Notes under the pieces: generated by a model | Databases searched by the model: none | Told to the model about the DNA's origin: nothing | Seen by the model: only the letters and a program-made list of their open reading frames with translations | Translations under genes and position numbers: made by a program | Source of the DNA: Prostheceraeus crozeri | Taxonomy: Eukaryota; Platyhelminthes; Polycladida; Euryleptidae | NCBI GenBank assembly: GCA_907163375.1 | Contig: CAJQUW010011242.1 | Span: 113,447-177,446, forward strand | Direction: 5' to 3' | Length of the DNA stretch: 64,000 nt | Shown: one piece after another, positions 36,271-54,829 of the stretch | How the letters are laid out: each line of letters opens with the position of its first letter | Numbering within the stretch: position 1 is the stretch's first letter

Positions 36271-36302
36271 ACCACTGCCTCTCATTTCATTTCATTTCAA
36301 TC

Positions 36303-36794: not shown

Positions 36795-36835
36795 GCCAGA
36801 AGATTGTAGCGCTTCTCATTCAATTTGAAGTCACG

Positions 36836-37090: not shown

Positions 37091-37249
37091 TCAAATTCAC
37101 ACCCCGAGAACGAACCATCGGCTCTCTTAAGGGCCACCATGGGGCAAGACATGATAGAACCTCCTCGCGGTTTGCCCTGGGCAGTCTTCGGACTGGCGAA
37201 TACTATCATTAAGTTGAATCTGCTATCAGTCAACTTGAACGTTGCAAAT

Positions 37250-38269: not shown

Positions 38270-38382
38270 GTTGTCTTTGAAATGCTGACTTTGAATAATG
38301 ATAACTTTAACATTTTTCTAATTCTTAAGTATACACAAGCAGCAAATCAGAATGAACATCCAATGAATGAAGAGGATGAAAG

Positions 38383-38389
38383 TATATAA
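38383..38389 (+). promoter_or_regulatory. TATA box of the element 2 polymerase copy
   Basis: TATATAA about 120 bases before the ATG-only exon at 38508-38510. The context differs from the element 1 polymerase promoter at 2941. Confidence 0.55.
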
Positions 38390-38507
38390 GCAAAGTGACA
38401 TTCATGTCATTTCATTTAATCTGTGAATCATACAAGTGACGAACGCACGATCGCTCTCTCTTCTTTGACTATTGACAAATATTCTGTCTGATTCATATTT
38501 CATTAAA

Positions 38508-41500
38508 ATGGTAAGTTTTAAAGGATTTCCTCTCTCCACTCTCCCTCAAACCGTGTGTGACTAATAGCATCTTCTCAATTTCAGGCATCAACTTCATCCA
38601 ACCACAACGCCCTCCCTTCTCGAGGGAAAGTTTAGAGTTATTGAGTCAAGGTAGGTTGTAACACTACACTGAGGCTAGAACAGAGATGATAGAATGATTT
38701 CTCTTTCAGGTGATGCGAATTCCAGCTCAGAACTGTCGCGAAATGGCAACGAGTGGGAATGTGCTGACTGTGGGCACATCTTCACGAGGAAATGGGATCT
38801 CACACCGACAACATAAGCGAGGTGTTTGTCCGTCGACCTAAAGCCGGCATCAATCTCCGAAGGTGGGGATGATTCTGTTAACGTCGTCTCCTTTTCTTGC
38901 GACTTGTGCGCTCAGTCTTTCGAGACACGTTTTGAACTATCTTCGCACAGACTTCAACATACACACACGAACGATACCTACACCAACGGTACCTCCTCTA
39001 TCCGACTCACTGAAGTGTCCATAAATAATTTAGTGAGGAACTACCAGATGGACTCCTCAGAAACCATTGCTAACTTTGAGGAATGGTTTCATCAAAATTC
39101 ATCATTGATAGAAGCGCTCTTCAACAATTTAGACAATTTTAGGATGAAGGCGCTCATCTATCTTAAAATAAAATATGTAAAAATCGACCACCAAACTGGA
39201 CAAATAATAGAGAGGTTAGAGTTTCACATACCCTCCTCTCCTGCAACCGAGGTTGTAGACTATGAGTCTTGGATAAATTTTCACATCCAAGGATTAAAAT
39301 TAAATATTGATAAATTTAACGAGCGCGATAGCGGTCTCATTTTTGACGGCATTGAGTCCGCCTTATTTAAAATCAGTTTATTAGGAAATCATAGTGGTCG
39401 AGGCTCCTTTAGACTTCCAAAAAATTTAAAAAACAAAACTGCAGTCATCAATGTCGATTGAGAATCGCAATGTTTTAAATATGCTGTCCTCTCCATTCTC
39501 CACTATAATGACCTCAATGCGAATCGAAATCGCACATATAGCTATAGGCAGTGGGAGAATGAATTAAACTTCGATGACTGTAATAGTGACGATATGAAAA
39601 TTAAAGATATAGAAAAATTTGAAAAATTGAACAACATTAAAATAGTTCTCCATGTTTGGGAAAAGGATTGAAGGGTGTGCGCTACAACTCGCGTTCGAGT
39701 TGTTATGAACGTACAGTAAACCTGTTATTAGTAAAACAGGATGATAGTGAGGAATGGCACTACTGCGGTATTCCCAAAATCTCTCGCTTATACCACCACT
39801 TAGAAAAGTCGAGTAGAGAGTTATATTACTGCGACAGATGTATTCGCCACTTTAGGAGGAAAAACCTAAATTTGAAACTCATTTATGAGTGGTGTAAGCG
39901 AGGTAAACTGCAAATGGAACGCATGCCCAAAGATAAGGAGTTTTCATATAGAGAGAATGGCGATGAACTAAGTCCTCTTCGTGTCATCTATGCTGACATC
40001 GAATGTTATATCGATGATAACATCCATCGACCAGCAGCCATTTCCTGCTATGAAGTATGGCATGATCACTTTAGGGTAGGCAAAATAAAATGCGCGTCTG
40101 GCAAGGTGAGGATTGTATTTACCATTTCCTACAATTCCTCGAACAGGCTGTAAAATTTCAACAAAAGTATGATGGTGAACTCTATCGCAGATCATTGCAT
40201 ATGACAGCAGATGATCAAGCAAAATTTGATAGTTGCAACGTTTGCCCCAAATGTAGTAAAACATTTGACGATGATAAGATTAAGAAAGTGCGCGACCATG
40301 ATCACATCACTGGTAAATTTAGAAACGCACTCTGTTCAAAATGTAATTTTTCGCTGAGGATGAAGCGGCGTACATTACCCGTCATTTTCCATAATTTCAA
40401 GGGCTACGACAGCCATATGATAATAAAAGGAGGTTTAGGTCAAATGAAAGAGTGGAAGCTTGATGTAATAGCTCAAACGAGAGAGAAGTTTATGGCCATG
40501 ACAGCAAAAGTACCTGTCGATAAAACTAAAGAAAATAAGACGGTCTATTTTGATATAAAATTTTTAGATTCCTACCAATTTATGACTGCATCACTGGCCT
40601 CTCTCGTGCAAAATCTAAAGTCTCTTCCACTAACACAAAATCTTAAGAAACAATATCCAAATCTAACCGATGAAGTCATCACACGGAAAGGAGTCTTTCC
40701 ATATGCATATTTTGATGCAATTAGTAAACTCGGCGAGACTTCTCTTCCGCCCATAGATAAATTTAAAAATGATTTGACCGGCGCAGAATGTAAGACCGAA
40801 GATTATGATCATGCACAAGATGCATGGATAAAATTTGACTGCCATACATTTGGTGAATATATGATTGCCTACCTTAAGTTAGATGTATTTTTGCTGGCTG
40901 ATGTATTTCAGGAGTTTCGACGAGTGGCATTAGAAGAAGATAAGTTAGATACGTCCACTTTGTCAGTCTGCCAGCCATGTCATTTAAGTCTGCTTTTAAA
41001 ATGACTGGTGAGACCATTCATCTCTTACAAGATCCAGAGATGTATAATTTATTTGAGCGAGGAATTCGCGGTGGTCTCACATTTGTAAATAAACATAGGT
41101 TAAAATCAAAAATAGTAGGTAATGACCAGACTCATCTGAAGTATTATGACCAAAATAATTTGTATGGTAGTTCATTATCCAAACCGCTACCTCACTCTGA
41201 GTTTAGCTGGTTAGATGATAGTGAAATTCAACATTTCTCCAACCCTTCCAACATACTAGCAATTCCAGATGAAGGTGATTGGGGATATTATTTTGAGATA
41301 GATCTAATCTATCCAAATAATATTAAACATAAAACCGTAGATTTTCCACTCGCACCCGAATCAGGTGAAGTGAGTAAAGATATGTTTTCCGACTTTATGA
41401 AACAATTTCATAAAGATTTAGAATCATGTGGACAACCCAAGTATAAGCCTTGTCGCAAACTTTTACTCACTCAATATGATAAGGAAAACTATCTAGTCCA

Positions 41501-42497
41501 CTTTAGCATCTTAAAATTTTATTTAGAAATGGGCATGATTTTAAAAAGAGTTCACCGCATTATTAAATTTAGACAGAAAGCCTTCCTCAAACCCTACATA
41601 GATAGTAACAGTCAGAAACGTGCACTAGCCCAAAATAATTTTGAAAAAGATTTTTATAAATATAAGAACAACAGTCTATTTGGTAAGACGATGGAGGATG
41701 TTAGAAAGCGCGTAAACTACAAACTAGTTAATGATGATCAAAAGTATCACAAATTGATCTCATCACCTCTATTCATCGATAGAGACATAATCGATGAGGA
41801 TCTTGTAGGTATTAAAATGATAAAATCTGAAGTTGAGTTGTGCAAACCCATCTATATTGGTCAAGCTGTTCTAGATTACTCCAAGCTTGAAATGTATCAA
41901 CTCTTCTATAAAATACTAAAACCGTGTCCTCTCGTAAAAGAGGTTCGTTTGTTGGGTGGTGACACAGATAGTTTCTTTTTAGGTATTACCACTCAAAAAG
42001 ATTTAAATTTTAATGAAGTAGGAAAATCTTTAGAAAGATATTTTGATACATCAAATTATCCTGCTAATCATCCACTATACTCCATCAAAAATAAGGCAAA
42101 ACTTGGCTGCTTTAAGGATGAGACAGCAGGGAAGGAGATAGCTGAAATGATTCTCCTCCGCCCTAAAATGTATTCTATGAAATTAAAGGATAGTGATGAT
42201 AGCATTAAGCGCGCTAAAGGCATATCAAGATCATTGGTCTCTAACATGAAACATAAGAATTTCAGGAAAGCCTATAGAAATAAAAATATAACGTTTGTCA
42301 ATATGACAATCTTAAAATCTAAGTCGCATGAGATCAAAACTCATACTTTTAGGAAACGGGCGCTTTCAGCATGGGAGGATAAGAGGTGCTGGCTAGAACA
42401 CAACATATCTCTTCCACATGGACATCCTGACACAAACATACCACCACCCAAAAGAATTAAACTCACACTACCACATTCAGGAGACGTCTTAGCATAA
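38508..42497 (+). pseudogene. Family B DNA polymerase, broken copy
   Basis: Homologue of 3444-8478 lacking the first exons. It starts with an exon that is just ATG (38508-38510), then GTAAGT and an acceptor ending at 38584. Breaks compared with element 1 are: loss of frame in the first coding exon (stop near 38635), a disrupted first C2H2 finger (about 38790-38820), a nonsense codon at 39459-39461 where element 1 has a conserved Cys codon, and frameshifts near 39660, 40078 and 40950. The catalytic motifs (ADIEC, FHNFKGYD, LLADVF, DQNNLYG, NSLFGK, GDTDSF) remain readable in pieces. Downstream of about 39920 it is almost identical to element 1, but upstream it is much more diverged, which points to recombination or gene conversion at that point. 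Confidence 0.88.
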
Positions 42498-42802
42498 TCA
42501 TCCTTAACTTAGTATTTTGATGTTGATTTCTGTAGATAAACATTGTTGTTTTATGTATCGCATGAGATTGTTTTTTCCTTGTGAATATGTGTCCACATCT
42601 GTACATTCCCCATGTGATGACTTTTCCACTGAAAGACATTTTTCCTATCCCTGTATATTTCCACCCTTCACGAAGTAAAAAGACTTTTTGTATATAACAA
42701 TGTTTATTGAAGTGCGCTCATGTATATATTTTCAGTGGATGTTGTATAAAGTCTATTCCTTCACATTCATGTACATATTTCAATAAATGTTGTATAAAGA
42801 CT
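42498..42802. terminator. Convergent 3' region, element 2
   Basis: Same arrangement as 8479-8789: AATAAA at 42782-42787 for the plus strand and TTTATT at 42713-42718 for the minus strand, giving overlapping 3' ends. Confidence 0.5.
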
Positions 42803-44353
42803 TCACTTTGTTTTCCGAAACACTAACGTTATGAGGGATTTAGTATCTTTCACATGGATGCACTCTTGTAAACCATTGGTAATTTTGATAGCAATAGAGG
42901 GTATAGTTTGTTTGACGACGGGATGATAGAAAATAGATTCAAACATCTTCTCGACTATTCCATATGAAGCGTCTTTATCATGAATGAAATCACGTAAAAT
43001 GTATTCTTTTTTCTCGCCAACAGAAATAGGTAGAATCAAATCACTTTGAATGTAAAGGTGCTGTTCATGTTTATCAAGTGTCATTGGTGTTTCTATACCA
43101 ATCGTATGCGCAGCAGCAAACACAGTTTGTAGCATTGAAAAACCAAAGAGTTTTTTCAAATTTTTACTCAATTGACATTGAATGTCATCACCCAGTCTCA
43201 GAACAACGCGTTGATTTTCAATTGAAAACGAAATGTGGTGTGTCTTTACATCATATTTACTTTTCATCACATGCTTCAACTTCTGTTGTATATAAGGATT
43301 TACTACATGAATGAAGCTTTCAACTGTATGATATAGACGCGGCATTATATTGATAGCAACTTTAGATTCTTCATAAGACTGGTAAATTTTCTTGATGCGA
43401 TCGCCATAGATGTCCACCCACCATTCATCATTAACTGAATCAGCTTTAGTGTGATATTCATGAGAAGCATATACCACACCGCTTCCAATAATAGGTGTAT
43501 AATGTCTTACAAAATGACGCAAGGTTGGAGAGAAATAAACTGTAAGTTTGTCATTATATTTCTGAATAACCAACTTATTTTTGTCCGCCATAATTTTCTC
43601 TCCATACTTCTTACCCACAGTCTCATTCCATCGTTTTACTAACTCAATAAGTGATAAAGGTTGAACACCACGCTTTTTCAAAATGATGCGTTCTTCGCAT
43701 TCTACAACATCTTCATCAAATATTTTAAATCTATAATGAAATTTGTTGATTCGATTTGAATAAACTTTTCTAACATTTGCAGTAGCAATTGACGTTAGAT
43801 GTAGTCCATGACCAAAACCGAGATGCGGATAGAATTCACTATCCAACCTCAGCGTAAGACCTTTAGTAAAAGAATGAAAGCGGAGGAACTGTCTCCCACT
43901 CCAATGATAGATAGTAAACTCATAAGCTTTCTGATTTTTATTCTTCATGATGGAAGTATTACCACTGTTGAATGCCTTAATAATTTTCTCATTCCCAAAT
44001 GGCTCATAAGAATCTGATTTTATCTGAATCCATTCATAGTTCCACTTTCCATCTGATGTTAAATTGTATGGGAACTGAAATGCATTATTCATCGTTATTC
44101 CATCATGGGTGCGAGGAGTCAATATCATTTCTTCCAAATCATTCACATTCTGAATATTGCTATCATAGCAAATACTAGAAACGCCAACCTCCCATTCACC
44201 TTCTAAATGCAGTGGGCGATTTAATTCTACTCGATAGTCTGATGGTTTATTTTTGGGAAATTTATTCATAGAAGCATTACTGGGCAAGTAGATTAGAAAC
44301 GAGTCCTTATTTTCACTTTCCATATTATTCACATTGGAAAAATATATTAGCAT
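42803..44353 (-). CDS. Large Polinton structural-type protein 1, 516 residues
   Basis: The N-terminal block FLIYLPSNASMNKFP then YRVELNRPLHLEGEWEVGV is a signature seen in many invertebrate Polinton-associated proteins. It probably belongs to a virion or assembly component, but I do not know its exact role. The next ORF upstream (44363-45781) is a paralogue with the same opening. An alternative start at 44323 (MESENKDSF) fits the paralogue better than the first ATG. The protein is mostly beta-rich, without a membrane segment or signal peptide. Its C-terminal third survives as the stump in element 1. It lies convergent to the polymerase and 9 bases from its paralogue. Confidence 0.7.
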   Translation of the reverse strand: MLIYFSNVNNMESENKDSFLIYLPSNASMNKFPKNKPSDYRVELNRPLHLEGEWEVGVSSICYDSNIQNVNDLEEMILTPRTHDGITMNNAFQFPYNLTSDGKWNYEWIQIKSDSYEPFGNEKIIKAFNSGNTSIMKNKNQKAYEFTIYHWSGRQFLRFHSFTKGLTLRLDSEFYPHLGFGHGLHLTSIATANVRKVYSNRINKFHYRFKIFDEDVVECEERIILKKRGVQPLSLIELVKRWNETVGKKYGEKIMADKNKLVIQKYNDKLTVYFSPTLRHFVRHYTPIIGSGVVYASHEYHTKADSVNDEWWVDIYGDRIKKIYQSYEESKVAINIMPRLYHTVESFIHVVNPYIQQKLKHVMKSKYDVKTHHISFSIENQRVVLRLGDDIQCQLSKNLKKLFGFSMLQTVFAAAHTIGIETPMTLDKHEQHLYIQSDLILPISVGEKKEYILRDFIHDKDASYGIVEKMFESIFYHPVVKQTIPSIAIKITNGLQECIHVKDTKSLITLVFRKTK

Positions 44354-44362
44354 ACGTTTGCA

Positions 44363-45781
44363 TTAACTCTTCATTCGGAAATGGAGTGTGATACTTGTCA
44401 CAGCATCTTTATGAAAAGGAATCAACGCACCAGCATCGTCATAAATGGCAATATCAATTTGTGGGATGTAGTTTGATTTCAGCTTTGTATAATGCACTTT
44501 CTTGAAAGTATGCTCAGATAAAATACTGCAGCTCTTTGGCTGGTATGGTATCATTGCTAACAATGGAGCTTCAACATCTCCCACACGTACATCTTCACCA
44601 ATATTGGAATATATCTGAAAATAGTTAATACGACGCGATAGCGACATGTCTGCGCTAGCTTTGGTTACAGTACCACTTTTAAAGATATTTTGGTCAAAAC
44701 CCAAAATGTCCATTAGAGTTTTATCCATAATTAGTTCAATACCTTTTCCACTTATAGTGAGAGACAAAGTACCTTCTTTTTCAGAAAATGAAATATGTTG
44801 GTCATTAATCACTTCATTTAAATAATCTACAACCAATTTAACTGAAGTAATGATGCGAGGCATCAGCACTCTTGTTTCATGTAAGATACCACCGAAAGGC
44901 TCTACACACTTTCTGTATAAAGATACGCTCCATTCTGTATCAAATTGATTTGACCTTTCACATGGTAAATGTTGCATATTAAATTTTCCATGAACAGCTG
45001 CAGAATGATGTCGCAAGAACTGATGAAAATCTTTTGAACAAATTAATACTAGATCATCATCATTTAATTTACTTATTGCAATATGATTAGATGATTTAAT
45101 ATAAGTCAATGTTGCCACTTGTTTACCATCAACTCGAAGGAGATAATTAAATTTCTTCAATAATGTTTCAGGAGTCATGTTTGTCTTTCTTGGCTTAATC
45201 ACAATCTTCTTCACCAACGTCTTCTCATTTTTTGGAATAAGATCTACATAATAAGCTTCCTCTCGATATATTAACTGTTTATGAGCACTTATGTGGTAAT
45301 TAACGTTAAAATTATCATAGCTTGTCAAGGCGCTAGCGAGGTAACCTAAATCATTTCTTAAACTTGGACTTAAACCAACAATCCAATCTTTCTCAACTAC
45401 ATGATGTATATAAGTATAATCATCATTGTGTGGAGTAAATTGGGCAATATGTTTACACGCTTTATTCAAGAAATCATATATAAACTTTTTACATGATAAG
45501 AGATCTTTCTTTGACCACTGTGGAATGTATACTCGGCAGCCCTTTTCACATTGGTAAGCAGCTGTACGTCTCATATTAATAGTCATCACCTCATGATCAA
45601 AAGTATAGACACAGTTGCTATAAACAAGTTGAGTGACACCCACTTCCCAATTCCCATTTAGCTGTTGTGCATGATCAATGGGAGTAGAAAAGACTGCGGC
45701 TCGATTACTAGTAAATCTCTTTGTAGCCGCATTGCTAAGCAAAATATGATAAAACGACATTTTTATATTGCTAATCTGCAA
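44363..45781 (-). CDS. Large Polinton structural-type protein 2, about 465 residues
   Basis: Shares with protein 1 the pattern hydrophobic strand, LSNAATKRF, HAQQLNGNWEVGVTQL, and a similar middle (PHNDDYTYIH, SLRNDLGYL) and end (ITLHFRMKS against VTLVFRKTK). The two are therefore tandem duplicates. The start at 45760 (MSFYHILLSNAA) matches the start of protein 1 better than 45781. Its start lies only 35 bases from the ATG of a divergent gene at 45796, so the two promoters must overlap or lie inside coding sequence. Confidence 0.65.
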   Translation of the reverse strand: MQISNIKMSFYHILLSNAATKRFTSNRAAVFSTPIDHAQQLNGNWEVGVTQLVYSNCVYTFDHEVMTINMRRTAAYQCEKGCRVYIPQWSKKDLLSCKKFIYDFLNKACKHIAQFTPHNDDYTYIHHVVEKDWIVGLSPSLRNDLGYLASALTSYDNFNVNYHISAHKQLIYREEAYYVDLIPKNEKTLVKKIVIKPRKTNMTPETLLKKFNYLLRVDGKQVATLTYIKSSNHIAISKLNDDDLVLICSKDFHQFLRHHSAAVHGKFNMQHLPCERSNQFDTEWSVSLYRKCVEPFGGILHETRVLMPRIITSVKLVVDYLNEVINDQHISFSEKEGTLSLTISGKGIELIMDKTLMDILGFDQNIFKSGTVTKASADMSLSRRINYFQIYSNIGEDVRVGDVEAPLLAMIPYQPKSCSILSEHTFKKVHYTKLKSNYIPQIDIAIYDDAGALIPFHKDAVTSITLHFRMKS

Positions 45782-45795
45782 CTTTGCATAACATC

Positions 45796-46152
45796 ATGAA
45801 GACTTGGATTTTGGACTCTCTACAATATATCAGAGTTGATCGTGATGGAAACGTACATTTCAAAAATTCTCATGGTCATACATCAAGAGGAATTACATTA
45901 ACATGGCGACAATTTGTCAACCTCAATGATATCATGAGGGATTTGGAATATTTTGAAACATTAAGATTCATCTCCCTGGGTGATCAAGTTTGGCTTCAAC
46001 ATTACAGAAATGAAATTCAAATCTACCATTCTCATTCCGCAAACTGTTTCTCATTTCGCAAATACAATTGGGAGAAGTATAGAAGATACATACATCGCTC
46101 CATCATGACATTTATTCGTCGTGAGTTCATCGCCCTACTATGCAAATCTTAA
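45796..46152 (+). CDS. Small protein with PC4-like pattern, copy 1 (118 residues)
   Basis: The sequence falls into two halves, each with beta-hairpin then helix: VDRDGNVHFKNS...SRGITLTWRQFVNLNDIM, and LGDQVWLQHYRNEIQIYH...NWEKYRRYIHRSI. The GITLTWRQFVNL segment resembles the GI-L-x3-Q-x2-L motif of the PC4/p15 transcription coactivator fold, which binds single-stranded DNA. This is pattern recognition only. A tandem paralogue follows at 46174. The position next to a TBP-like gene would fit a transcription role. Confidence 0.5.
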   Translation: MKTWILDSLQYIRVDRDGNVHFKNSHGHTSRGITLTWRQFVNLNDIMRDLEYFETLRFISLGDQVWLQHYRNEIQIYHSHSANCFSFRKYNWEKYRRYIHRSIMTFIRREFIALLCKS

Positions 46153-46173
46153 TCAGACATGACTATCACGCAC

Positions 46174-46826
46174 CATGAGTTGGAAATTAGATTCCCTACA
46201 ACGTATTGAAAACGGATCATGATCGAAACGTCTATTTCAAAGATTCAACTGGAAATGTGAGAAGAGAGTTTGCTTTATCTTATCGCCATTTTCAATCTCT
46301 ACATCATATCATGAAGGATTTAAAATACTTCTATATGAAAAGACATTCACGTATTGGAAATCGCATCTGGTTGCGCGTCAACAATCGGCGAATTCAACTC
46401 TATCATTCCCAACTTCATACTAACTTCACATTTCATCAAGGTAGTTGGGAAAAGTATAAAAGGAAGGTACATCGCTCAATTTACTCATTCTTTCATCATG
46501 AAGCGCCATCGCTACACCATCGTCAACATTCTCCGTCGCTTCAGACTCTACACCAAAATCGATCTCACAACATTACACCAACAGCTTCCAAACAGCAAGT
46601 ATTACCCGGGTCGTCCTCAAATGTTAGTGGTGAAGATGAACAATTCACGGAATCTTCAACTCTTCCCAAATGGGACTGTACAGATTCTCGGCGCCCTTTC
46701 TCATTCATCGGCGCAGTCAATGCGCTTAGAGCTACAAAGACTACTACGTCGGATATGGAAGAGGGAGAGGTGTGTGATGTCGAATCTGACTGTGGACAAT
46801 ATGGTGATCTCTACTCAATTGAGTGA
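46174..46826 (+). CDS. Tandem paralogue of the PC4-like protein, with possible frameshift
   Basis: The ATG at 46174 opens MSWKLDSLQRIENGS and hits a stop at about 46219. The frame that continues the family resemblance (DHDRNVYFKDSTGNVRREFALSYRHFQSLHHIM) is open from about 46206 to 46826. Either a one-base frameshift sits near 46205 or a non-ATG start is used. The paralogous part ends at about 46500 (KYKRKVHRSIYSFF). The remaining frame is serine-, threonine- and acid-rich and overlaps the TBP-like gene in another frame, so its coding status is uncertain. Confidence 0.5.
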
Positions 46827-47043
46827 CAGTCTATCATTTTTGAAGATTCGTACCAGCAGTTACAGTTTGTGTTATGAACCCGAACTTTTTCCTGCAGCTC
46901 TCATTAGTTGTTGGTTACCTGTGCATGTGGCAATCTTTCATAATAGTAAAGTGATCATTACTGGACTAAAATCTCATGTACAAGCAAATATGATCCTAGA
47001 CTATCTCATTGAGTATGTACGTACCCAGCGGATTGTAAAATAA
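46498..47043 (+). CDS. TATA-binding-protein-like protein, 181 residues
   Basis: Two imperfect half-repeats match the saddle domain of TBP. Half 1 has YTIVNIL (6-12), SKYYPGRPQMLVVKM (33-47), LQLFPNGTVQILGAL (53-67) and a following helix. Half 2 has NMVISTQL (101-108), SLCYEPELFPAALI (123-136), VAIFHNSKVIITGLKS (144-159) and a last helix. The YEPELFP and K-V-x-TG elements are classic TBP signatures. Of the four phenylalanines that kink DNA in TBP, three appear present (F56, F131, F147) and one seems replaced (P40). The length equals a bare TBP core. It overlaps the previous frame and its stop overlaps an AATAAA. The inferred role is recognition of the element's TATATAA promoters. A host-derived TBP relative is the main alternative origin. 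Confidence 0.75.
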   Translation: MKRHRYTIVNILRRFRLYTKIDLTTLHQQLPNSKYYPGRPQMLVVKMNNSRNLQLFPNGTVQILGALSHSSAQSMRLELQRLLRRIWKRERCVMSNLTVDNMVISTQLSDSLSFLKIRTSSYSLCYEPELFPAALISCWLPVHVAIFHNSKVIITGLKSHVQANMILDYLIEYVRTQRIVK

Positions 47044-47074
47044 AAAACAATTTTTCCAACATGATGTTTTTATT
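47039..47074. terminator. Polyadenylation signals overlapping two convergent stop codons
   Basis: AATAAA at 47039-47044 overlaps the TAA stop of the TBP-like gene (47041-47043). On the minus strand AATAAA (complement of 47069-47074) overlaps the stop of the protease gene (47070-47072). The convergent genes are separated by only 26 bases. Confidence 0.6.
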
Positions 47075-47531
47075 TCAAATCATGATAGAACTTACAAATC
47101 ATTTTTTCATTAGAGGATGGATTACATGAAAAGTTTTGAATAACAGATACAAATCGAGATACATGTAAACGTCTTAAGATGAAGTACAGTACAAAAGCAC
47201 CACACGTTGATGAAAGTGGATGTTGTAGTATGCGTTCATTTCGCTGATATTGACGCGTATGTTTTCTCAACCACTGCTGTGTTGGTATATTTGGAGGTTG
47301 AGCAAGAGAGTCAAATAGTTCACCACGTCGGTCTTCTCCAATAAAGATCGCTTTCCAATGCTCACCGCCTAAATTCTGTGAATGAGTGTTTAGCACAATA
47401 AAGATGGGATAGTGATTTACTGCAGGTGGTAAGGTATCGAGTGAATAGACATTATCGAAAGCTTTCAACGTCGCTTCGTCTGCATTACGCTGCACTTTAG
47501 TCTTAATATCGTCAGCAGTCAACCAACTCAT
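47070..47531 (-). CDS. Adenain-like cysteine protease, 153 residues
   Basis: Maturation protease of the adenovirus-type family found in Polintons. The catalytic layout is visible: His58 in GGEHWKAIFI, Asp74 in GELFDSLA, Gln103 in LQHPL and Cys110 in SSTCGAFVLYF. The length is somewhat shorter than adenain (about 200 residues) but includes the complete catalytic core. Its ATG overlaps the stop of the capsid gene by one base (TAATG), which suggests translation or transcription coupling. Probable substrates are the GG-containing basic proteins at 48811 and 51914. Confidence 0.85.
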   Translation of the reverse strand: MSWLTADDIKTKVQRNADEATLKAFDNVYSLDTLPPAVNHYPIFIVLNTHSQNLGGEHWKAIFIGEDRRGELFDSLAQPPNIPTQQWLRKHTRQYQRNERILQHPLSSTCGAFVLYFILRRLHVSRFVSVIQNFSCNPSSNEKMICKFYHDLK

Positions 47532-48808
47532 TAACGATTATACTGAAGAATCACGTCACGATACTTTGTAATTTCAATATTTGAATCGAAGACTGCATAA
47601 ATTAATACATTGATCGTCTCAGGTAGTGTTCTTTTGAACGTTAAATCCAAACGAATATTATGAGGCACGTTCGCTTGACGATAGGGTGCACTAATATCGC
47701 TGTCAGCAGTCAAATCAAATGCATAAATAGTATATCCACTCTTAAACTCTTTCATAGTCAGTCCGTTGGTGTCATCCGTATTGTAAAAGCCAAAAACATC
47801 CATAAAATCAACATAACTGCGCATAAATTGATCTGAAGCAAAATCTGGTTTGTAGGGTGGACCAGGATGACTCACACCATTTACACGTAAAGCAATTTCA
47901 CTTAACTGATTGTGTTTAAAATTGAAAGGATTCTTCTTTATATTACCATTAAATGCATCATTTTCAACCATTGCCACCATGAGGAGCTTCGGTGCTTCCG
48001 ATGGAAAGAGGCCATCTTTCATGAAACTCTTTTGATCTTTCGGAATTGTAAAGGTGAGAAGCTTTGTATGCTGAATGGGGTAAATGGCATTTTGGCGGTT
48101 AAGGCCTTCAGCATGCCCTCTAATGACACTTGGATTCGGTACTACTCGACGAATGTAAAGTGCAATATCTTCCACATGAATTCTAAAATTGTCAACTTTA
48201 GCAAATGCATTCAGCGCAAATTCAGGCTTATTCAATGTCAGCTTGAGTCGCATGCTGGTATTACACAGTAAAAACTTTGACTGTCTAAAGAAGTCTAAAT
48301 TCAGCGGACCATATAGCTGACATACTCTACTATCTTTAATCATAGCAGATCGCTTTACAAAGCCACTGTTTGTTTCAACATCAAATTTTCCTGCTTCATC
48401 TCTGTACCATCCCATGGCTTCCATATGACTTTTTTGTGCTGCTGGATGAAACTGTGATACATGATTGAAATATGATTTATAGGGATAATCGCTTTGACCA
48501 CCTTCCACTTGCTGCTCTCCAATCGTTAGAGAAACATCACGAAGTAATGTAGTCAATGGTAAATTGTTCAGTCCAACTTTATGTGCATCGTCAATAGCAG
48601 TTCCATCTGCTTGCTGAATTCTAAACCTCAAATCAAGCATCGCATAACTCAAATCTATGTAGTCATCACTACCACCAGGAATAACAAATTCAATGGGGCC
48701 AGCATTCTCAGCTGTTCGAGGATGATAATCTACAATACTTGAACTAAGAATATCTGTCTGTATGGCTTGTTGATCGAACAAACAAAAACCGGAAGTTTTA
48801 CACTCCAT
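47531..48808 (-). CDS. Major capsid protein-like (F54H12.2-type), 425 residues
   Basis: The N-terminal block GPIEFVIPGGSDDYIDLSYAML is the hallmark of the F54H12.2-like family encoded by Polintons, whose capsid proteins are double jelly-rolls. Later blocks such as NPFNFKHNQLSEIALRVNG, and the C-terminal ETINVLIYAVFDSNIEITKY, also fit this family. The protein is mostly beta-rich with no membrane segment. The length is typical. It starts two bases after the stop of the basic GG protein and is followed by the protease, a normal morphogenesis-cluster order. Confidence 0.78.
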   Translation of the reverse strand: MECKTSGFCLFDQQAIQTDILSSSIVDYHPRTAENAGPIEFVIPGGSDDYIDLSYAMLDLRFRIQQADGTAIDDAHKVGLNNLPLTTLLRDVSLTIGEQQVEGGQSDYPYKSYFNHVSQFHPAAQKSHMEAMGWYRDEAGKFDVETNSGFVKRSAMIKDSRVCQLYGPLNLDFFRQSKFLLCNTSMRLKLTLNKPEFALNAFAKVDNFRIHVEDIALYIRRVVPNPSVIRGHAEGLNRQNAIYPIQHTKLLTFTIPKDQKSFMKDGLFPSEAPKLLMVAMVENDAFNGNIKKNPFNFKHNQLSEIALRVNGVSHPGPPYKPDFASDQFMRSYVDFMDVFGFYNTDDTNGLTMKEFKSGYTIYAFDLTADSDISAPYRQANVPHNIRLDLTFKRTLPETINVLIYAVFDSNIEITKYRDVILQYNR

Positions 48809-48810
48809 GA

Positions 48811-49266
48811 TTAGAAGTTATAGCAGCGTCGTCGTTTAGCGCCTGATGAATGATTAGAGCCTCTGCGACGTTTGCGTGAATGCCTTTTGACTGAAGATCG
48901 CACCTTACCAGCTCCGCGATGTTTCCTCCTTCCTTTATTCATTCGTTTAGGTGATTTCTTTCCTTGAGTAACACCAGCAATGGTCTGCTTCAATGTTTTT
49001 AAACCGCGTTCCTTCCCACGATTCAACAAACTGCTCTTAAAACTTCTACCTCTGGAAAGATCACTAGCAACATCACCAGCAAAGCCAACGGCATTACTTA
49101 AAACATTTCGTTTTAAAGATCTACCGACATTGGATATGAGAGGTGCTACAACAGATTTCAGTGCACCAAGTATGCTACCTCCACGTTGGCGGCGAGCACC
49201 GATGTAAATTTGTCCTCCGCCACTTACATAGGAGGGTCGTGAATAAAATGAGGCAGTTGGATTCAT
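48811..49266 (-). CDS. Basic GG-motif core or internal virion protein, 151 residues
   Basis: Very basic, with a C-terminal half rich in Arg and Lys (KSPKRMNKGRRKHRG, then KRHSRKRRRGSNHS). Near the N-terminus GG-containing sites (SGGGQIY, QRGGSILGAL) resemble those cut by adenain-type proteases, followed by a short amphipathic helix (GALKSVVAPLISNVGRSL). This pattern resembles adenovirus protein VI/pX-type and Polinton analogues that coat DNA or disrupt membranes. Assignment is by composition and context. Confidence 0.6.
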   Translation of the reverse strand: MNPTASFYSRPSYVSGGGQIYIGARRQRGGSILGALKSVVAPLISNVGRSLKRNVLSNAVGFAGDVASDLSRGRSFKSSLLNRGKERGLKTLKQTIAGVTQGKKSPKRMNKGRRKHRGAGKVRSSVKRHSRKRRRGSNHSSGAKRRRCYNF

Positions 49267-49307
49267 AGCTCAAACCCTAAACATTGTTAGTTACAACTTT
49301 GCATGAA

Positions 49308-50396
49308 TCACTGTCGATCACTTAGATGAAAGATGTCGGCACGACGCATCCAAGAGTTCATACTTGAAGGATAACCAGTCCATTTAACAAGACACCATTC
49401 TTCACCTTGCCGTTTTTTACATCGAATGATTTTCTCTACCAAATATGTTTCACTTTCAGTGACTACCTCAATCTCATCGCGGTAAAAGCTACCCTCAATT
49501 TCTTCATTATCGTAATCTTTCAACTTGTAGGTGGTCGGAGAGTCTTTTTGATTAATCCTTGATACTGTAAATACCTCCTCTGTCCAATTCGGAAGGTACC
49601 CTTTAGCAAAAACACTTTTCACTTTTGAGATACGAACTTTATCGCCAATTTTCACATCACTTTTCACATGAGTGCGTTTACGTTGGAATGATTCGCGCAC
49701 TTTATCTACATTGTCAGCATTTACATCTACTGGTCTGAGTCCAATAGAACGATGGATAGAGTGATTGTAGGCATGGAGTGTATCTTGTAGAACCTTTGTC
49801 CAATTTTGTGTCAAGTTGGCAGTAAAATGTCGCCACAAGCGATTTTTTAATGTGCGATTAAAACGTTCAACGAGTGCAGCTTTATAAGCGCTCTTTACAC
49901 TAAACAACTCAATGTCATGCCTCTCAAATAATCTTGTCACATGCTGATTTTCAAACTCTTTTCCTTGATCACTCTGAATTCTTTTTGGAATGCGACCTTC
50001 TCGAAAAATTGTTTGGAATGCTTTTGCTACTCCTTTCCCTTCTTTAGTTTTTAAAGGTTGAGCCCACGCATAACGCGAGAAAATATCAATGACGGTTAAA
50101 ATAAAATTATTACCCGAGTTATGTTTTGAAATGGAGGCAACATCGCACAAATCTGCTTGCCACTGTTCATCGATGTCATGAACAATATAATGGCGGGTGC
50201 GGTACTTCTTTTTCGCTTGTTTGTGGAGTGTATAGGTAGCCTGACCCTTTAACCATCGTTTCACTTGTGATTGTGGAAGACCACTCGCTTTTGATAATTT
50301 CTTGATAGATGCAAATCCTGCCGGATGTTTTACATCATAATAGATTGACTTCAAACGTTCAGTCGATGACGGCTGACTCTTTTTCCTCCTTCTCAT
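49308..50396 (-). CDS. Retrovirus-like integrase with chromodomain
   Basis: Integrates the element into host DNA. Visible parts are an N-terminal helix-turn-helix-like segment (YYDVKHPAGFASIKKL), the rve core with DDE residues in WQADLCD, RIQSDQGKEF and ALVERFNR, an SH3-like part (KIGDKVRISKV) and a C-terminal chromodomain (YLVEKIIRCKKRQ...WCLVKWTGYPSSMNSW). The second Asp and the Glu are 33 residues apart by my count, slightly shorter than the usual 35. I start at 50396 (MRRRKKSQ). The open frame continues to 50528, but that extension overlaps the cysteine-rich gene and has no conserved sequence. The gene looks intact. Confidence 0.88.
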   Translation of the reverse strand: MRRRKKSQPSSTERLKSIYYDVKHPAGFASIKKLSKASGLPQSQVKRWLKGQATYTLHKQAKKKYRTRHYIVHDIDEQWQADLCDVASISKHNSGNNFILTVIDIFSRYAWAQPLKTKEGKGVAKAFQTIFREGRIPKRIQSDQGKEFENQHVTRLFERHDIELFSVKSAYKAALVERFNRTLKNRLWRHFTANLTQNWTKVLQDTLHAYNHSIHRSIGLRPVDVNADNVDKVRESFQRKRTHVKSDVKIGDKVRISKVKSVFAKGYLPNWTEEVFTVSRINQKDSPTTYKLKDYDNEEIEGSFYRDEIEVVTESETYLVEKIIRCKKRQGEEWCLVKWTGYPSSMNSWMRRADIFHLSDRQ

Positions 50397-50574
50397 CTTT
50401 TTTCTTTCTTGCCTTTCTACATTTACAACAACTGCAGCATTTAGCTTTAGCGGTTTTGCGATCGTGTTCACATTGCTTAGGGGTTTCATTATGAGAGCTG
50501 GCGCAGCAAGTGCAAGTGACAACGACATTCACCTCTGGCGGCTCATTACATGGCAAGCAACACATCTGCTTCAT
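50359..50574 (-). CDS. Cysteine-rich small protein, 71 residues
   Basis: Many cysteine pairs (CCLPC, CTCCASSH, CCSCCKC) suggest metal binding, followed by a charged tail (KARKKKDEKEEKE). No family recognised. It begins one base after the stop of the 230-residue gene and overlaps the integrase start by 38 bases, which fits the compact cluster. It may be a real small gene or a shadow of the integrase extension. The cysteine pattern favours the former. Confidence 0.5.
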   Translation of the reverse strand: MKQMCCLPCNEPPEVNVVVTCTCCASSHNETPKQCEHDRKTAKAKCCSCCKCRKARKKKDEKEEKESAVID

Positions 50575-50575
50575 A

Positions 50576-51268
50576 TTAATAGTCTGAGAACATGTATTTC
50601 CTAGGAGGAGCTGTTTTACGTTTTCCTTTTACCAGTTTTAGTGGCGATGTAGATCTACGTCGAGTTCTTCCTCTTGTTTGCTTAGTGAGTGTGGGAGGGG
50701 ATGTAGCAGGTGACGTCTTAAACCAATTTGTTGGCATTTTCATCACCTGAAGCATTGGAGTAGTAGCCACTGTTGAATCAAGTTCTTTCAATGTCTCATT
50801 ATTTAAAGCAAATTTTGGCACATTATGCTTTTTCAATAGTTTAAGAAAGTATGACCAACCAGGTGGAACATAGCCCTGACGGCGCTTTCTACGTGTCGCA
50901 TACTGAATCAAGTCTTCATAACGTGAAGCATCAATCACTTTATTTTCATCTGTAATGATTTCTCCTCTATCATTTACATTGAGATGGGGTTCAATACTGT
51001 TGAAAAGAGATATGGCATGTGCGCGAGATGCTAAAGGTGTAGCAGTCGATACAGAGTCACGCATCTTATTCTTCAAGTTTTTCAATTGCTCAACAGTTTC
51101 CGATTGTAATAATACAGCACGATGTGGATCTTTGATGTGAACATTTTGCTGATAATCTATTTCTTTCCTATACATTTGATTTGCAAGAGGTTGCTTTACT
51201 TGCTGCATGGCAGTCAATTGTACATATTCATCCTGAGGAATAACAATCATGCGAGAATAAGAACTCAT
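50576..51268 (-). CDS. Hypothetical cluster protein, 230 residues
   Basis: Begins MSSYSRMIVIPQDEYVQL and ends basic (RGRTRRRSTSPLKLVKGKRK). Residues 115-150 (SRYEDLIQYATRRKRRQ, then PGWSYFLKLLKKHNVPKFALN) look like a helical interaction region. This gene type is common in Polintons beside the ATPase, but I do not know its function. It may be a minor virion or DNA-binding protein. Its ATG overlaps the ATPase stop (ATGA), a classic coupled arrangement. Confidence 0.6.
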   Translation of the reverse strand: MSSYSRMIVIPQDEYVQLTAMQQVKQPLANQMYRKEIDYQQNVHIKDPHRAVLLQSETVEQLKNLKNKMRDSVSTATPLASRAHAISLFNSIEPHLNVNDRGEIITDENKVIDASRYEDLIQYATRRKRRQGYVPPGWSYFLKLLKKHNVPKFALNNETLKELDSTVATTPMLQVMKMPTNWFKTSPATSPPTLTKQTRGRTRRRSTSPLKLVKGKRKTAPPRKYMFSDY

Positions 51269-51930
51269 AGTTTGTAGATAATCATGGGAGTTTTCAAAAT
51301 ATCACTTCGAAATCTAAATTCTTCCGGACACTCTTGCGTAAAGTCAATGAATAAGTAACCGTATGGTTTTTCAGTAGCTGCTTGAAAAATTTCAATTAAG
51401 GCTTTTGATCCTCTGGGTGCAACTTGTCGCGCTAAAATTTCAAATTGACTTTTATCTCGCGGATTCTTGAAAATAGCATAATAGTGTGTATTCAGGTTTC
51501 GTGTACGAGCTTCTTTTCCATCAGGAAACAAATTTTGTGTGATATAGATGATAAAGCACCTTTTATGATGTGCTGCGCGAGTGAACATATCTGTAACATC
51601 TTTTGAATTCTTACTTTCTTTTAATAAATCATCCAATACAACAACATCATTAGACTGAAGTTTATCCACTGCAATAATTCCTTCATGTCGAATAAAGTTG
51701 CGACTTTGCAATTCCTGAAACAGCGACGGTTGATAAATACCATAACACCAAATCACTCGATTGATAGGTTCCCTAAACAACTCCCTTCTTTTATCCAATA
51801 AATTCAGCGTGAAAACAGTTTTACCTGCATGAGATGGACCTGATACAGTCAGAACTTTATCGCATTGAAGTCTGAAATCCATTTTATTACTTTGAAACTC
51901 AACATTTGCATAATTAACGCTTAGAGCCAA
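51265..51930 (-). CDS. A32-like genome packaging ATPase, 221 residues
   Basis: P-loop ATPase of the FtsK/HerA-A32 type that drives DNA into capsids. Walker A GPSHAGKT at residues 31-38, Walker B VVVLDD at 96-101 and a sensor-like YITQN near 130. The length is typical for Polinton ATPases. Its start overlaps the preceding basic protein gene by 17 bases and its stop overlaps the following ATG. Confidence 0.88.
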   Translation of the reverse strand: MALSVNYANVEFQSNKMDFRLQCDKVLTVSGPSHAGKTVFTLNLLDKRRELFREPINRVIWCYGIYQPSLFQELQSRNFIRHEGIIAVDKLQSNDVVVLDDLLKESKNSKDVTDMFTRAAHHKRCFIIYITQNLFPDGKEARTRNLNTHYYAIFKNPRDKSQFEILARQVAPRGSKALIEIFQAATEKPYGYLFIDFTQECPEEFRFRSDILKTPMIIYKL

Positions 51931-52270
51931 AGATATTTCCCAATAGGTTGCCCACGGCAGGAGCTATCATTGGAAGTATTGCTGAAAGGAAACCGCCCTT
52001 TTGTGTTAGAGTTTTCCTCTTTCTTTGAAGGGCGACTTTAGGATTGGAGATGAAACGCAATTTTGTAGCATATCGCTTAAGTAACTTTCGTTGTTTTGGT
52101 GCTAATTTCTTCGTCCTCAACTTTCTCACATGAGAAATAATTTCACAAATGAATTTATCGTTAGCATGTCGTATAGCATTGTATCGCTGATTTGCTTTCA
52201 TTCGTCGGAGAGCTTGAATGGCTGAAGAAAACTTTTGACTTTTACGTTTCGTCATTTTACGTTTCGCCAT
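51914..52270 (-). CDS. Basic protein with GG site and hydrophobic tail, 118 residues
   Basis: The lysine- and arginine-rich body (RKMTKRKSQKF, KLRTKKLAPKQRKLLKR) is followed by LTQKGGFLSAILPMIAPAVG, that is, a GG site and a hydrophobic, possibly membrane-active segment, then a short basic end. The arrangement resembles adenovirus pX/VI-type precursors reported in Polintons and adintoviruses. Likely a virion component matured by the protease at 47070. Confidence 0.6.
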   Translation of the reverse strand: MAKRKMTKRKSQKFSSAIQALRRMKANQRYNAIRHANDKFICEIISHVRKLRTKKLAPKQRKLLKRYATKLRFISNPKVALQRKRKTLTQKGGFLSAILPMIAPAVGNLLGNIFGSKR

Positions 52271-52321
52271 TTTCCGTGTTAGTCTTTGCTAAAACCTATC
52301 TTTACCACATTTGCATAGGTA

Positions 52322-52645
52322 CTAACTATTGCGGCATAAGTGACACTCGAAATGAGCAATATCACAGTGGTTACATTGGCAAAGTTGAATGCAATTACGT
52401 ATGAAACAGCGTTGACAAAAAGCATGCTTACATCTCTTGAAGATGCGCTTTTCATTTCCATCCTTTCGTTTACATACATCGCAACACATAGTTTCACCGT
52501 TACTGATGTCTATAGCAAGTCTTTTTGAAGATATGAATTTGCTAGCCTTTTCTAAATAAATGACGCATGTACAGAAGGAATATACTTCGAGAGTGAGCAG
52601 ACATAGCTCGAAAACCAGTTGTGCTACAATCAAGTACCACTGCAT
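52322..52645 (-). CDS. Membrane-anchored RING-type protein, 107 residues
   Basis: An N-terminal hydrophobic stretch (YLIVAQLVFELCLLTLEVYSF) can act as a signal anchor. The C-terminal half has a RING-like spacing: CCDVC, then CKHAFCQRC, then CQCNHC and CHLC. A ubiquitin ligase or other zinc-binding regulator is possible. It starts two bases after the stop of the 136-residue gene. A second small RING-like frame lies at 53729. Confidence 0.6.
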   Translation of the reverse strand: MQWYLIVAQLVFELCLLTLEVYSFCTCVIYLEKASKFISSKRLAIDISNGETMCCDVCKRKDGNEKRIFKRCKHAFCQRCFIRNCIQLCQCNHCDIAHFECHLCRNS

Positions 52646-52647
52646 TT

Positions 52648-53058
52648 TTAATTTTTGTTTATGGAAAGTTGAATGTGAATATCTGAAATCGCTTCAATCA
52701 CTAGACTGCTACCATGATGGTTAAATGCGTTAAGACGTTCAGCAATTTTTATCATATGTCTTTTAAAAAATTCTTCGGGGTGATCTACCACTTCCATTGA
52801 ATAAGAAGTAAAATGGAAAGAGCGAGTTTCCACCTCTTCCTTTCCAAAATGACTAAACTTAATTTTCGCAACTAATCGCGCCATGACAATGCTATCAGAG
52901 AATGTATTCATTAACTCTAGAAATAGAGTGCTAGCATCATCGAGCACTGCTTCGATGTCAGTCTCATCTTTATGAAAATTTATCACATAATCTTGAACAG
53001 CTCCTTTTAAACTTTGCCTATGAAAACGTAATGTTCCGCAGTCGTTTGAGAAAGACAT
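52648..53058 (-). CDS. Stand-alone paralogue of the polymerase N-terminal domain, 136 residues
   Basis: The pattern FHRQSLKGAVQDYVIN, STLFLELMNTF, MARLVAKIKFSHFG, RSFHFTS then NHHGSSLVIEAISDIHIQL aligns by eye with the domain after the C2H2 fingers of the polymerase (4998-5380: SIRLSEVSINNLVRNYQM, SSLIDALF, MKALIYLKIKYVKI, EFHIPSS, DGIESAKFKINL). The order and spacing of strands and helices agree although identity is low. It is therefore likely a duplicated domain used as a separate protein, perhaps in complex formation with the polymerase or with DNA. Function unknown. Confidence 0.6.
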   Translation of the reverse strand: MSFSNDCGTLRFHRQSLKGAVQDYVINFHKDETDIEAVLDDASTLFLELMNTFSDSIVMARLVAKIKFSHFGKEEVETRSFHFTSYSMEVVDHPEEFFKRHMIKIAERLNAFNHHGSSLVIEAISDIHIQLSINKN

Positions 53059-53145
53059 GATCGCCCTTTATCTAACCCATCCATTGCATGAAAACAACAA
53101 CTCTTCTCATAGTAACATTTATTGAATAACGGTAACAAGCATGCA

Positions 53146-53676
53146 TTATAAATCAATGGTTTGAAAGAGATAAAATAGATACAGCTGATAACTATCATAC
53201 AGCGAGCAATGATAACCATACAGGACTTTGGCAGTGTTGAGGTAAGGAGGAAAGAAGCATTGGTTATGAACGTAGCTACTACAACGAACAGACAAAATAG
53301 GAACACACAAATCCTTAAAACGTTTCGTGACTTCATGATAATGTTGATTCACTCTACTATCCCAAGGCGGGAGCAAAATATCATCAATGATTAGATTGGG
53401 AAATACTTTCCTCTCCTTACCAGGATTATTACAAAAGATGCGTATAACATTGAAAGCAGCTAACCATCGTTTAAAGTCAATAAGAAGAGCACTCTCACAA
53501 GAAAAGCCATAGTCTTGCAAATATTTCAGATTAAGTCCATGAATGTGTTTTCTCGCCCATTGATCAACATTGGGATCGCAGTTGGCATGTTGATGATAGA
53601 CACTGACAATCTGATATGTCCAATTGTTCATAGCAATAGCACTGAGCTCCTGTACAGGTTCACCCTCACAATCCAT
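53146..53676 (-). CDS. DEDDh-exonuclease-like protein, 176 residues
   Basis: Begins MDCEGEPVQELSAI, matching the D-x-E motif I of DEDD exonucleases. An IFCNNPGKE segment near residue 80 is in the place of motif II, and YHCSLYDSYQLYLFYLF at the C-terminus has the H-x4-D arrangement of motif III. The conserved HGLNLKYLQDYGF lies between. Proteins of this type are found repeatedly in invertebrate genomes, but I cannot give a characterised family name. A 3'-5' nuclease acting on element or host nucleic acid is an inference. Confidence 0.6.
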   Translation of the reverse strand: MDCEGEPVQELSAIAMNNWTYQIVSVYHQHANCDPNVDQWARKHIHGLNLKYLQDYGFSCESALLIDFKRWLAAFNVIRIFCNNPGKERKVFPNLIIDDILLPPWDSRVNQHYHEVTKRFKDLCVPILSVRCSSYVHNQCFFPPYLNTAKVLYGYHCSLYDSYQLYLFYLFQTIDL

Positions 53677-53728
53677 AAAAATGATGATAGAAGCCTAAAA
53701 CGGAAATTTACACATCTAAGGAAGCGTT

Positions 53729-53977
53729 CTATAACATATTACAAAATGAAGAATTACATCGATGCTTTTCACGACAAAATACACAAATGATATGATGGCA
53801 ACGAAGAAGTAAAATGTATCTAATAAGACCACGTCTACGACACTCAAAGCACATAAGCGAATTGTCATAGGGTAGAGTTAGGAAAGGACTAGTAATTCTC
53901 CTTCTTTGATTTGCGTTTTGATGTAGCATTCTTCTCCGACTTGCGCTTCGTACCACTGCTGTTGAGGATTTGATCAA
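53729..53977 (-). CDS. Small RING-like protein, up to 82 residues
   Basis: CFECRRR, then RCHHIICVFCREKHRC and C near the end give a short RING-type cysteine/histidine series. The open frame starts inside the end of the 235-residue gene. An internal start at 53854 (MCFEC) would reduce the overlap. It may be a truncated relative of the protein at 52322. Confidence 0.45.
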   Translation of the reverse strand: MIKSSTAVVRSASRRRMLHQNANQRRRITSPFLTLPYDNSLMCFECRRRGLIRYILLLRCHHIICVFCREKHRCNSSFCNML

Positions 53978-54664
53978 TTATGTCATCTACGCTGGCTGCT
54001 TTTGGAATATATAGGATGGATTCCATATGCATGGAGAGAGAGGCTATTTTATTATCTTTGTGCTGACCATAATATAGTCCATTCACTTTGAAAAGGATAT
54101 CCCAAGTACCTTCTCCGAGCTCGTCGCATGTGATGATTGTTGAATGATCTCCCTCCTTCTTATAGTAAGTACACCAATGTGATACCGGTAGGCAAATTTG
54201 ATTACCATCCCAAATCTTTCTATAGGGAGTATCCTTGTCATCTCTCGCTTTCCACTCTTGAGCAAGAGGAGTAGGAATGTCCATATTTAATGTCACGTAC
54301 TCCTCAATAATATCAAGTTGGCGGCGAATGTACGGACTCACGGGGATCAGTATGTAGTCCCCATACTGATTGTGCATTATCTTGACATCCGTGGAAGGGA
54401 GCATTCCCGTTTGGAGTACTACGCTATGATCATCATAACGCAAGACTTGTTTAAATTTACGCTGTAGCGGTGTAGGATTATGTACCTTGGTTGTTTCTTC
54501 CACTGGCCTCAGTTGTAGATGATCTGATCGGAGCGAACCTTGTAACGTTTGACCGTCATGTTGTCCTACTAGTGCAGCAGATGGAGTAGATGCCTGAAAA
54601 TGAAAAAAGATTGTATTAAGTTTACGTTCAAGGGAGGAGAGGGAGGGAAGTAGCGACTTACCAT
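53889..54664 (-). CDS. Spliced hypothetical protein, 235 residues
   Basis: Exon 1 is only the ATG (54662-54664), followed by GTAAGT. The intron occupies 54594-54661 and ends TTTTCAG. Exon 2 is 53889-54593 and begins GCATCTACTCC, which keeps the frame open to the stop. The first residues (M, ASTPSAALVG) resemble those of the polymerase exon that begins GCATCGACTTC. The rest is not recognised. The end is basic (GTKRKSEKNATSKRKSKKE), a likely nuclear signal. It is the first gene of the minus-strand cluster. Confidence 0.65.
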
Positions 54665-54764
54665 TTTAGTTGGATAATAGAACAGGGAACTAGAGAGAGA
54701 GAAAATGTGCGTCCGTCACTCGTGTGATTCAACGATGGATTGATTCTCACTGTGGAAGGCTCGC

Positions 54765-54772
54765 TATTTATA
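54765..54772 (-). promoter_or_regulatory. TATA box of the minus-strand cluster
   Basis: TATAAATA on the minus strand, about 100 bases before the ATG exon of the 235-residue gene. It is the only clear TATA box I see upstream of the 54664-47070 cluster. Confidence 0.5.
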
Positions 54773-54829
54773 AAGAAATGCTTGATTCTCATTGGATGAT
54801 GATCCTCATTGGACAATAACATTAAGCTG

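Follow-up and report, generated by a model that had tools for sequence, protein, structure and literature searches.

Can a mobile element bring its own TATA-binding protein (TBP), and what would such a protein do for it? Few promoter factors of eukaryotes and archaea are as conserved as TBP, and Polintons are regarded as relatives of adenoviruses and giant viruses. The question is raised by a locus of the polyclad flatworm Prostheceraeus crozeri (assembly GCA_907163375.1, contig CAJQUW010011242.1, positions 113,447 to 177,446), a stretch of 64,000 nucleotides which is called the window here and to which all coordinates refer. It contains a TBP-related gene which lies in a Polinton and whose product is best explained as a promoter factor of the element.

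The gene in question is the following:
46498..47043, + strand: TBP-like gene, 181 amino acids (open frame, Pfam TBP, AlphaFold)

The frame is open for 181 residues and ends with a stop codon, and frame 1 of the reverse complement contains many stops. The product is matched by Pfam TBP (PF00352) with an expect value (E) of 4.9e-20 and 71.6 bits at a cut-off of 22.9, in two stretches which correspond to both half-repeats. A sequence search of the PDB yielded 35 distinct sequences (best E 2.1e-12), all named TBP, TFIID or TBP fusions except one entered as ECU04_1440 protein. The AlphaFold model, with a predicted local distance difference test (pLDDT) score of 95.6, has the predicted saddle fold of the TBP superfamily. 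The sequence-only reading which had proposed the gene had pointed to both half-repeats, to the strings YEPELFP and IFHNSKVIITG and to three of the four DNA-kinking phenylalanines within a Polinton-like element; the strings are present in the translation, the phenylalanines are F56, F131 and F147, and these proposals, like the expected TBP fold, were borne out. With an identity of about 20-26% to cellular TBPs, the product is a TBP-related factor by fold and not a canonical TBP by its residues.

What distinguishes it from a canonical TBP became apparent when contact residues were counted over 136 proteins, 62 from an alignment (A1) and 74 others among the 120 alignment-search matches listed, with the roles in contacting DNA, TFIIA and TFIIB being those of the corresponding positions in canonical TBP. 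Only three of the four intercalating phenylalanines are kept in the window protein: the position of human F197 is occupied by P40 and is proline in 130 of the 136 relatives. The three other kinking phenylalanines and the repeat-2 DNA-contact set are nearly invariant, the five repeat-2 residues counted being kept in 135-136 of 136 proteins. In repeat 1 the position of human T222 is leucine in 119 of 136, and the asparagine is kept in all 115 proteins having a letter there. In TBP-DNA structures the TATA box is read by repeat 2 in its 5' half and by repeat 1 in its 3' half; the altered DNA-contact residues of the Polinton protein fall in repeat 1. The TFIIB-contact residues E284, E286 and L287 are matched by E127, E129 and L130 of the window protein and kept in 134, 136 and 126 of 136. 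The TFIIA-contact positions N189, E191 and R205 do not show the canonical set, being N32, K34 and N48 in the window protein; among the 136 proteins the asparagine is kept in 17 and the arginine in 8, and E191 is replaced by lysine in 112.

The genes around the TBP-like gene, in their order along the window, are these:
36105..55970, no strand: stretch common to the window copy and two others (both ends in contig C347, left end in C3678), which marks sharing and not settled termini
39656..42497, + strand: family B DNA polymerase (PolB) region, three overlapping open frames, broken in the window copy
42803..44353, - strand: pent2 (label given here), resembling pent1 near the N-terminus
44363..45781, - strand: pent1 (label by position), no family match
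47070..47531, - strand: cysteine protease, adenovirus/Ulp1-like, a weak assignment (Peptidase_C48 E 9.5e-4, 19.5 bits at a cut-off of 20.7; Peptidase_C5 E 0.048)
47531..48808, - strand: major capsid protein candidate, so named from its place in the gene order alone
49308..50528, - strand: rve integrase (E 1.2e-10) with a C-terminal chromodomain (Chromo E 6.5e-7 at residues 362-400)
51265..51930, - strand: packaging ATPase candidate, A32-like, a weak assignment (Pox_A32 E 0.017, under the cut-off)

Two firm hallmarks, the protein-primed kind of PolB and the rve integrase, indicate that the TBP-like gene resides in a Polinton. The former was recognised in the middle one of the three PolB pieces (DNA_pol_B_2 E 1.1e-8, together with Endonuclease_7 E 9.2e-8), and the latter carries the C-terminal chromodomain which passages of PMC11071296 give as a criterion of adintoviruses. 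The capsid candidate has neither a Pfam nor a PDB sequence match, and a scan of PolB-region frames gave no match to OTU. Two small proteins at 52322-52645 and 53729-53977 have RING-like Cys/His patterns by eye, with no Pfam match for the first.

The gene has multiplied together with its element. An exact 30-mer of the TBP gene occurs 4,770 times in the 2.05-Gb genome and one of the capsid candidate 4,823 times, with 0 occurrences of the reversed control and of the capsid control. In protein searches of the genome all 150 scored TBP matches (of 11,899 first-look candidates) and all 99 scored capsid matches (of 19,359 candidates) were 100% identical. In a sample of 99 TBP and 98 capsid sites, taken from 100 places listed for each and lying on contigs up to C216, a capsid site lay 0.9-1.4 kb from the TBP site in 84 of 99, with a spacing of exactly 1,123 bp in 60 of these, and 84 of the 98 capsid sites had a TBP site near. 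At all eight loci fetched by the capsid gene (8 of the 99) the TBP gene adjoins it, with frame breaks in two; as these loci were picked for perfect capsid genes, they are young copies. When 30 copies picked for identical TBP were compared with the window, 17 had an identity of 99% or more along the part that aligned. Some 4,800 exact matches in a 2-Gb genome and near-identical copies point to a recent burst. If most copies were full length the element would make up 4-5% of the assembly, which may include duplicated contigs. One lineage (L048), 95% identical in TBP, gave nonsynonymous (dN) and synonymous (dS) divergences of 0.022-0.027 and 0.060-0.078 from other copies, with only 16-19 differences per pair.

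Recurrence of the gene in other Polintons, which had been suggested as a check, was found within the same genome, where three further TBP types, 37-57% identical, occur and two of them adjoin capsid and protease genes. The loci L004, L005 and L007 carry the capsid candidate, protease, TBP (41.5-42.1% identical to the window) and pent1, and L047 carries the capsid candidate, protease, TBP (40%) and pent2. The third type (L006, L008, L050, L053-L056 and L058) is 37-57% identical over parts; no capsid gene is present in the stretches fetched for these loci, a PolB-like C-terminus lies nearby in L006 (by eye), and weak orfA matches (E 5e-5 to 1e-4) precede TBP in L053, L055 and L056. Outside this genome a single-protein query (P0001) matched 61 proteins from 95 candidates and an alignment query 367 of 2,313; among the 120 matches of the latter listed, four bear automatic TBP or TFIID names from the Joint Genome Institute (JGI). 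Searches of IMG/VR found no relative. Since several of the foreign relatives read carry a common string before the TBP start, e.g. HFFAM, an orfB-like gene may precede them too.

Upstream of the TBP-like gene lie two related frames:
45796..46152, + strand: orfA, 118 amino acids, best model a two-repeat PUR/Whirly/PC4-like fold
46206..46826, + strand: orfB, an orfA-paralogous domain (39-44% identical) followed by a tail which overlaps the TBP gene

As no Pfam or PDB sequence match of orfA to the PUR/Whirly/PC4 families was found, its likeness to PUR is one of fold alone, and it is not counted as a family member. orfA and pent1 are divergent and have in common a short intergenic stretch, 45760-45796, with one ATGCAAA. 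In the window copy a stretch near the orfB start lies in another frame than the remainder of the gene; in the eight capsid-selected copies it matches orfA from orfA residue 3 onward in a single frame. At least one gap relative to the window was present in 29 of the 30 copies, mostly exactly one, and the sole gapless copy (L021) aligned only from beyond the gap site; the common gap presumably falls in orfB.

The tail of orfB overlaps the TBP gene in the -1 frame at 46498-46826, about the first 110 TBP codons. The -1 frame runs into the TBP gene for 326 nucleotides in the window, 305 in L004 and L005 and 338 in L050 and L006, and synonymous-codon shuffles of TBP equalled the 326-, 305- and 338-nucleotide overlaps in just 1-2 of 5000 each. 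In three of eight copies the overlap is shorter: 140 nucleotides in L007 (0.9% of shuffles), 137 in L008 (12%) and 11 in L047. For the pairs window/L005, window/L050 and L005/L050 the two-frame protein similarity was beaten by 3, 0 and 0 of 2000 shuffles, that of the remaining frame by 272, 130 and 18 of 2000, and that of the rest of the TBP gene by 34, 357 and 283 of 1000. The frame ends with the residues SIE in the window and in L005; in L050 these three come 8 residues ahead of its end. A test of codon identity in the overlap gave no consistent difference. Judged by these sequence comparisons, the overlap DNA codes in both frames in three lineages. Ribosomes probably reach the TBP start inside the orfB message, through leaky scanning or re-initiation, or else TBP has a message which begins after a TATA box:
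46455..46461, + strand: TATAAAA, 43 nucleotides upstream of the TBP start, inside orfB

This box stands at the same place in three lineages; as it encodes Tyr-Lys of orfB and is TATAAAT in L050, it is taken as a hint only.

With a rough probability of 0.6, the TBP-like protein is an element-encoded promoter factor which recruits host TFIIB and RNA polymerase II; this role is favoured because the TFIIB-contact and DNA-contact residues are conserved. The protein would bind element promoters in the minor groove, where the intact second half would bend the DNA and the altered first half would change or loosen the sequence read at the 3' half-site. The DNA would then be handed to host TFIIB and RNA polymerase II with TFIIA not being needed, and element genes would be transcribed from promoters poorly read by the host TBP. 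The orfA and orfB products may act with TBP by holding melted promoter DNA or single strands made in replication. The promoter motif and the partners of the protein are offered as leads.

As to the motif, 120 nucleotides upstream of 16 gene starts were inspected, and ATGCAAA was counted in 38000-55000. Six of its seven copies sit 10-46 nucleotides upstream of a gene start (0.40 expected), and in a control with 60-nucleotide non-overlapping windows and any 7-mer none of 5000 random sets was as good. The copies next to starts are:
45783..45789, - strand: ATGCAAA, 29 nucleotides upstream of the pent1 start
first base 46140 (+ strand, orfB), 44363 (- strand, pent2), 49304 (- strand), 51911 (- strand) and 52316 (- strand): the other five

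It is possible, though on the unlikely side, that ATGCAAA is a site of host POU-domain factors and that the TBP-like protein reads something else. Four of the seven sites, three of them next to a start, carry ATGCAAAT, the octamer; against this, TATGCAAA, present at four sites which all adjoin starts, looks like a TATA element which has diverged except in its 5' half, and nothing in this analysis separates a reading of ATGCAAA by POU factors from one by the TBP-like protein. A self-contained promoter module, in which the TBP branch would have given up TATA for a motif of the element such as TATGCAAA, working with TFIIB and not TFIIA, co-encoded in two frames with a PUR-like single-strand-binding partner and helping the element by private initiation to reach thousands of copies, is rather doubtful as a whole.

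Several observations weigh against the promoter-factor role and its proposed motif. The sequence-only reading had regarded TATATAA boxes as the cognate promoters, which did not hold, canonical TATA being not enriched upstream of the 16 gene starts of the element (TATAAA 2 of 17 against 0.96 expected, TATA[AT]A 3 of 31 against 1.75). The ATGCAAA motif was noticed by eye and after the fact, shows no over-representation element-wide (7 against 5.9 expected) and forms most of the octamer bound by host POU factors; it was not seen before the gene starts readable in other lineages and therefore holds for the window lineage alone. The archaeal TBP of Pyrococcus likewise differs at two of the three TFIIA positions, so that the loss of TFIIA contacts may go back to an ancient condition. 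The way in which the protein searches pick candidates, by 5-residue words in common with the query, tilts the motif counts towards conservation. Confidence was much lower in four of the five orfA models (mean pLDDT 54.8-69.7), and a PUR-like protein may work in replication and not in transcription.

The residue pattern also bears on the idea that the protein is a host shut-off factor, a competitor which occupies TATA boxes or ties up TFIIB and thereby silences host genes. A competitor might look like a TBP with changed TFIIA-contact and kept TFIIB-contact positions; the near-invariant five repeat-2 DNA contacts speak against this explanation, as does the gene remaining beside capsid and protease in three lineages, unlike a loose accessory gene, so that it appears improbable. 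A similarly low chance is given to an architectural protein which bends DNA for replication or packaging and not for transcription. The adjoining orfA, whose PUR/Whirly-like best model would be useful in protein-primed replication, and the position of the TBP gene with the capsid module suit such a role, but the kept TFIIB triad E-E-L would be needless for a pure bending protein.

The descent of the gene was analysed in a tree of 36 rows, comprising 29 Polinton-type sequences (25 of them foreign proteins chosen), six cellular ones and one from a giant virus, with long branches for L047, TLF and the giant-virus row. The 29 Polinton-type TBPs formed one clade with support of 100/100 and a stem of 3.19 changes per site. 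Archaeal TBPs branched off with 86/91, and the grouping of the Polinton clade with eukaryotic TBPs, the giant-virus TBP apart, received 78/67. The tree points to an old lineage of TBPs which is specific to the elements. Of the two outcomes which the sequence-only reading had named as refuting it, a missing TBP fold and grouping as a recent host copy, neither came about. That the gene was captured or recently copied from the TBP or TLF gene of the host is hardly credible: the approximately unbiased (AU) test leaves room for an ancient capture from a eukaryote, since host TBP joined with the 29 Polinton-type sequences in one clade is not rejected (p 0.121), but the gene is one open frame of low identity to cellular TBPs, the host TBP is a split gene elsewhere (contig C9306), a TLF-like gene (L002, named by eye) lies on another contig (C3829), and the Polinton-type sequences form their single long-stemmed clade with no grouping as a recent host copy.

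The window holds further repeats. A second element at 1-15743 has inverted repeats of 1911 nucleotides, 99% complementary (1-1911 and 13833-15743), zinc-finger and Endonuclease_7 matches at 4685-8478, and AT-rich tandem arrays at 10.0-13.7 kb, with no capsid gene seen. Its region 4685-8478 is PolB-like via similarity to the TBP element (86% over 960 nucleotides, via L059), and its positions 1258-1946 are similar to a portion of the TBP element's left end; perhaps it is a PolB-only Polinton derivative. An Endonuclease VII-like domain (PF02945) is found within PolB-region frames of both elements, at 40090-41004 and 5740-8478. A tandem array of units of about 325 nucleotides occupies 17288-19040, and 208 nucleotides of it match the right end of a TBP-element copy (L060) at 93-94% identity. 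At 57313-58847 a mariner-like transposase in two frames (57525-58588), with DUF4817 and HTH_32 in the second, is flanked by inverted arms of 101 nucleotides, 99% complementary.

A large and old TBP branch in transposons would show that Polintons can bring their own core transcription factor. It would also be a natural experiment in TBP specificity, with one kinking phenylalanine lost, a changed TFIIA site and a retained TFIIB site. A second oddity, which can be tested separately, is the conserved overlap in two frames with the gene upstream, and thousands of element copies in one genome are a real burden for the host to answer.

Among known systems, cellular TBPs (PF00352; human, yeast, archaeal) share with the Polinton protein the two half-repeats, the saddle fold, the repeat-2 DNA contacts and the TFIIB triad. 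They differ from it in the repeat-1 phenylalanine (proline here), the repeat-1 threonine (leucine here) and the TFIIA contacts; in addition the Polinton protein is without an N-terminal domain and its gene is dual-coding and lies in a mobile element. TLF/TRF2 and other animal TBP-related factors have the TBP fold with altered DNA-contact residues, and the TLF-like gene of the host is separate and outside the Polinton clade. Polintons, Mavericks and adintoviruses are alike in PolB, the rve integrase with chromodomain and, as candidates, the protease, packaging ATPase and capsid protein, and unlike in the TBP gene and the copy number in thousands found here. In accordance with the sequence-only reading, which was aware of no Polinton TBP, none from a Polinton, Maverick or adintovirus was found described in the open-licence literature searched, which is weak evidence of absence; the words TATA and TBP are absent from the main text of PMC11071308, PMC10120064 and PMC4642659. 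That large DNA viruses carry TBP-like proteins, as it had also stated, agrees with 39 BFVD matches at E<=1e-3, many unnamed, which include Heterosigma akashiwo virus, Terrestrivirus and Mimiviridae. Passages of PMC11071296, PMC11464507, PMC10675990, PMC12220804, PMC12085832 and PMC10132985 report TBPs in Megavirus chilensis, a Chrysochromulina virus, mirusviruses and mirusvirus-like elements of Cymbomonas, and a TBP gene cluster is given in PMC10132985 for 59% of mirusvirus genomes. Giant viruses and mirusviruses are alike in encoding the TBP fold; their genomes are far larger than a Polinton, and the one giant-virus TBP in the tree, on its long branch, does not join the Polinton clade. The herpesvirus late-gene TBP mimics, such as ORF24 of Kaposi's sarcoma-associated herpesvirus (KSHV), use a TBP-like domain to direct host RNA polymerase II to non-TATA (TATTWAA) late promoters, as passages of PMC12529657 describe. 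According to the same passages ORF24 has further domains, one of which binds RNA polymerase II. Direct binding of TFIIB is reportedly incompatible with the model of ORF24, whereas the Polinton protein is a bare TBP core which keeps the TFIIB triad.
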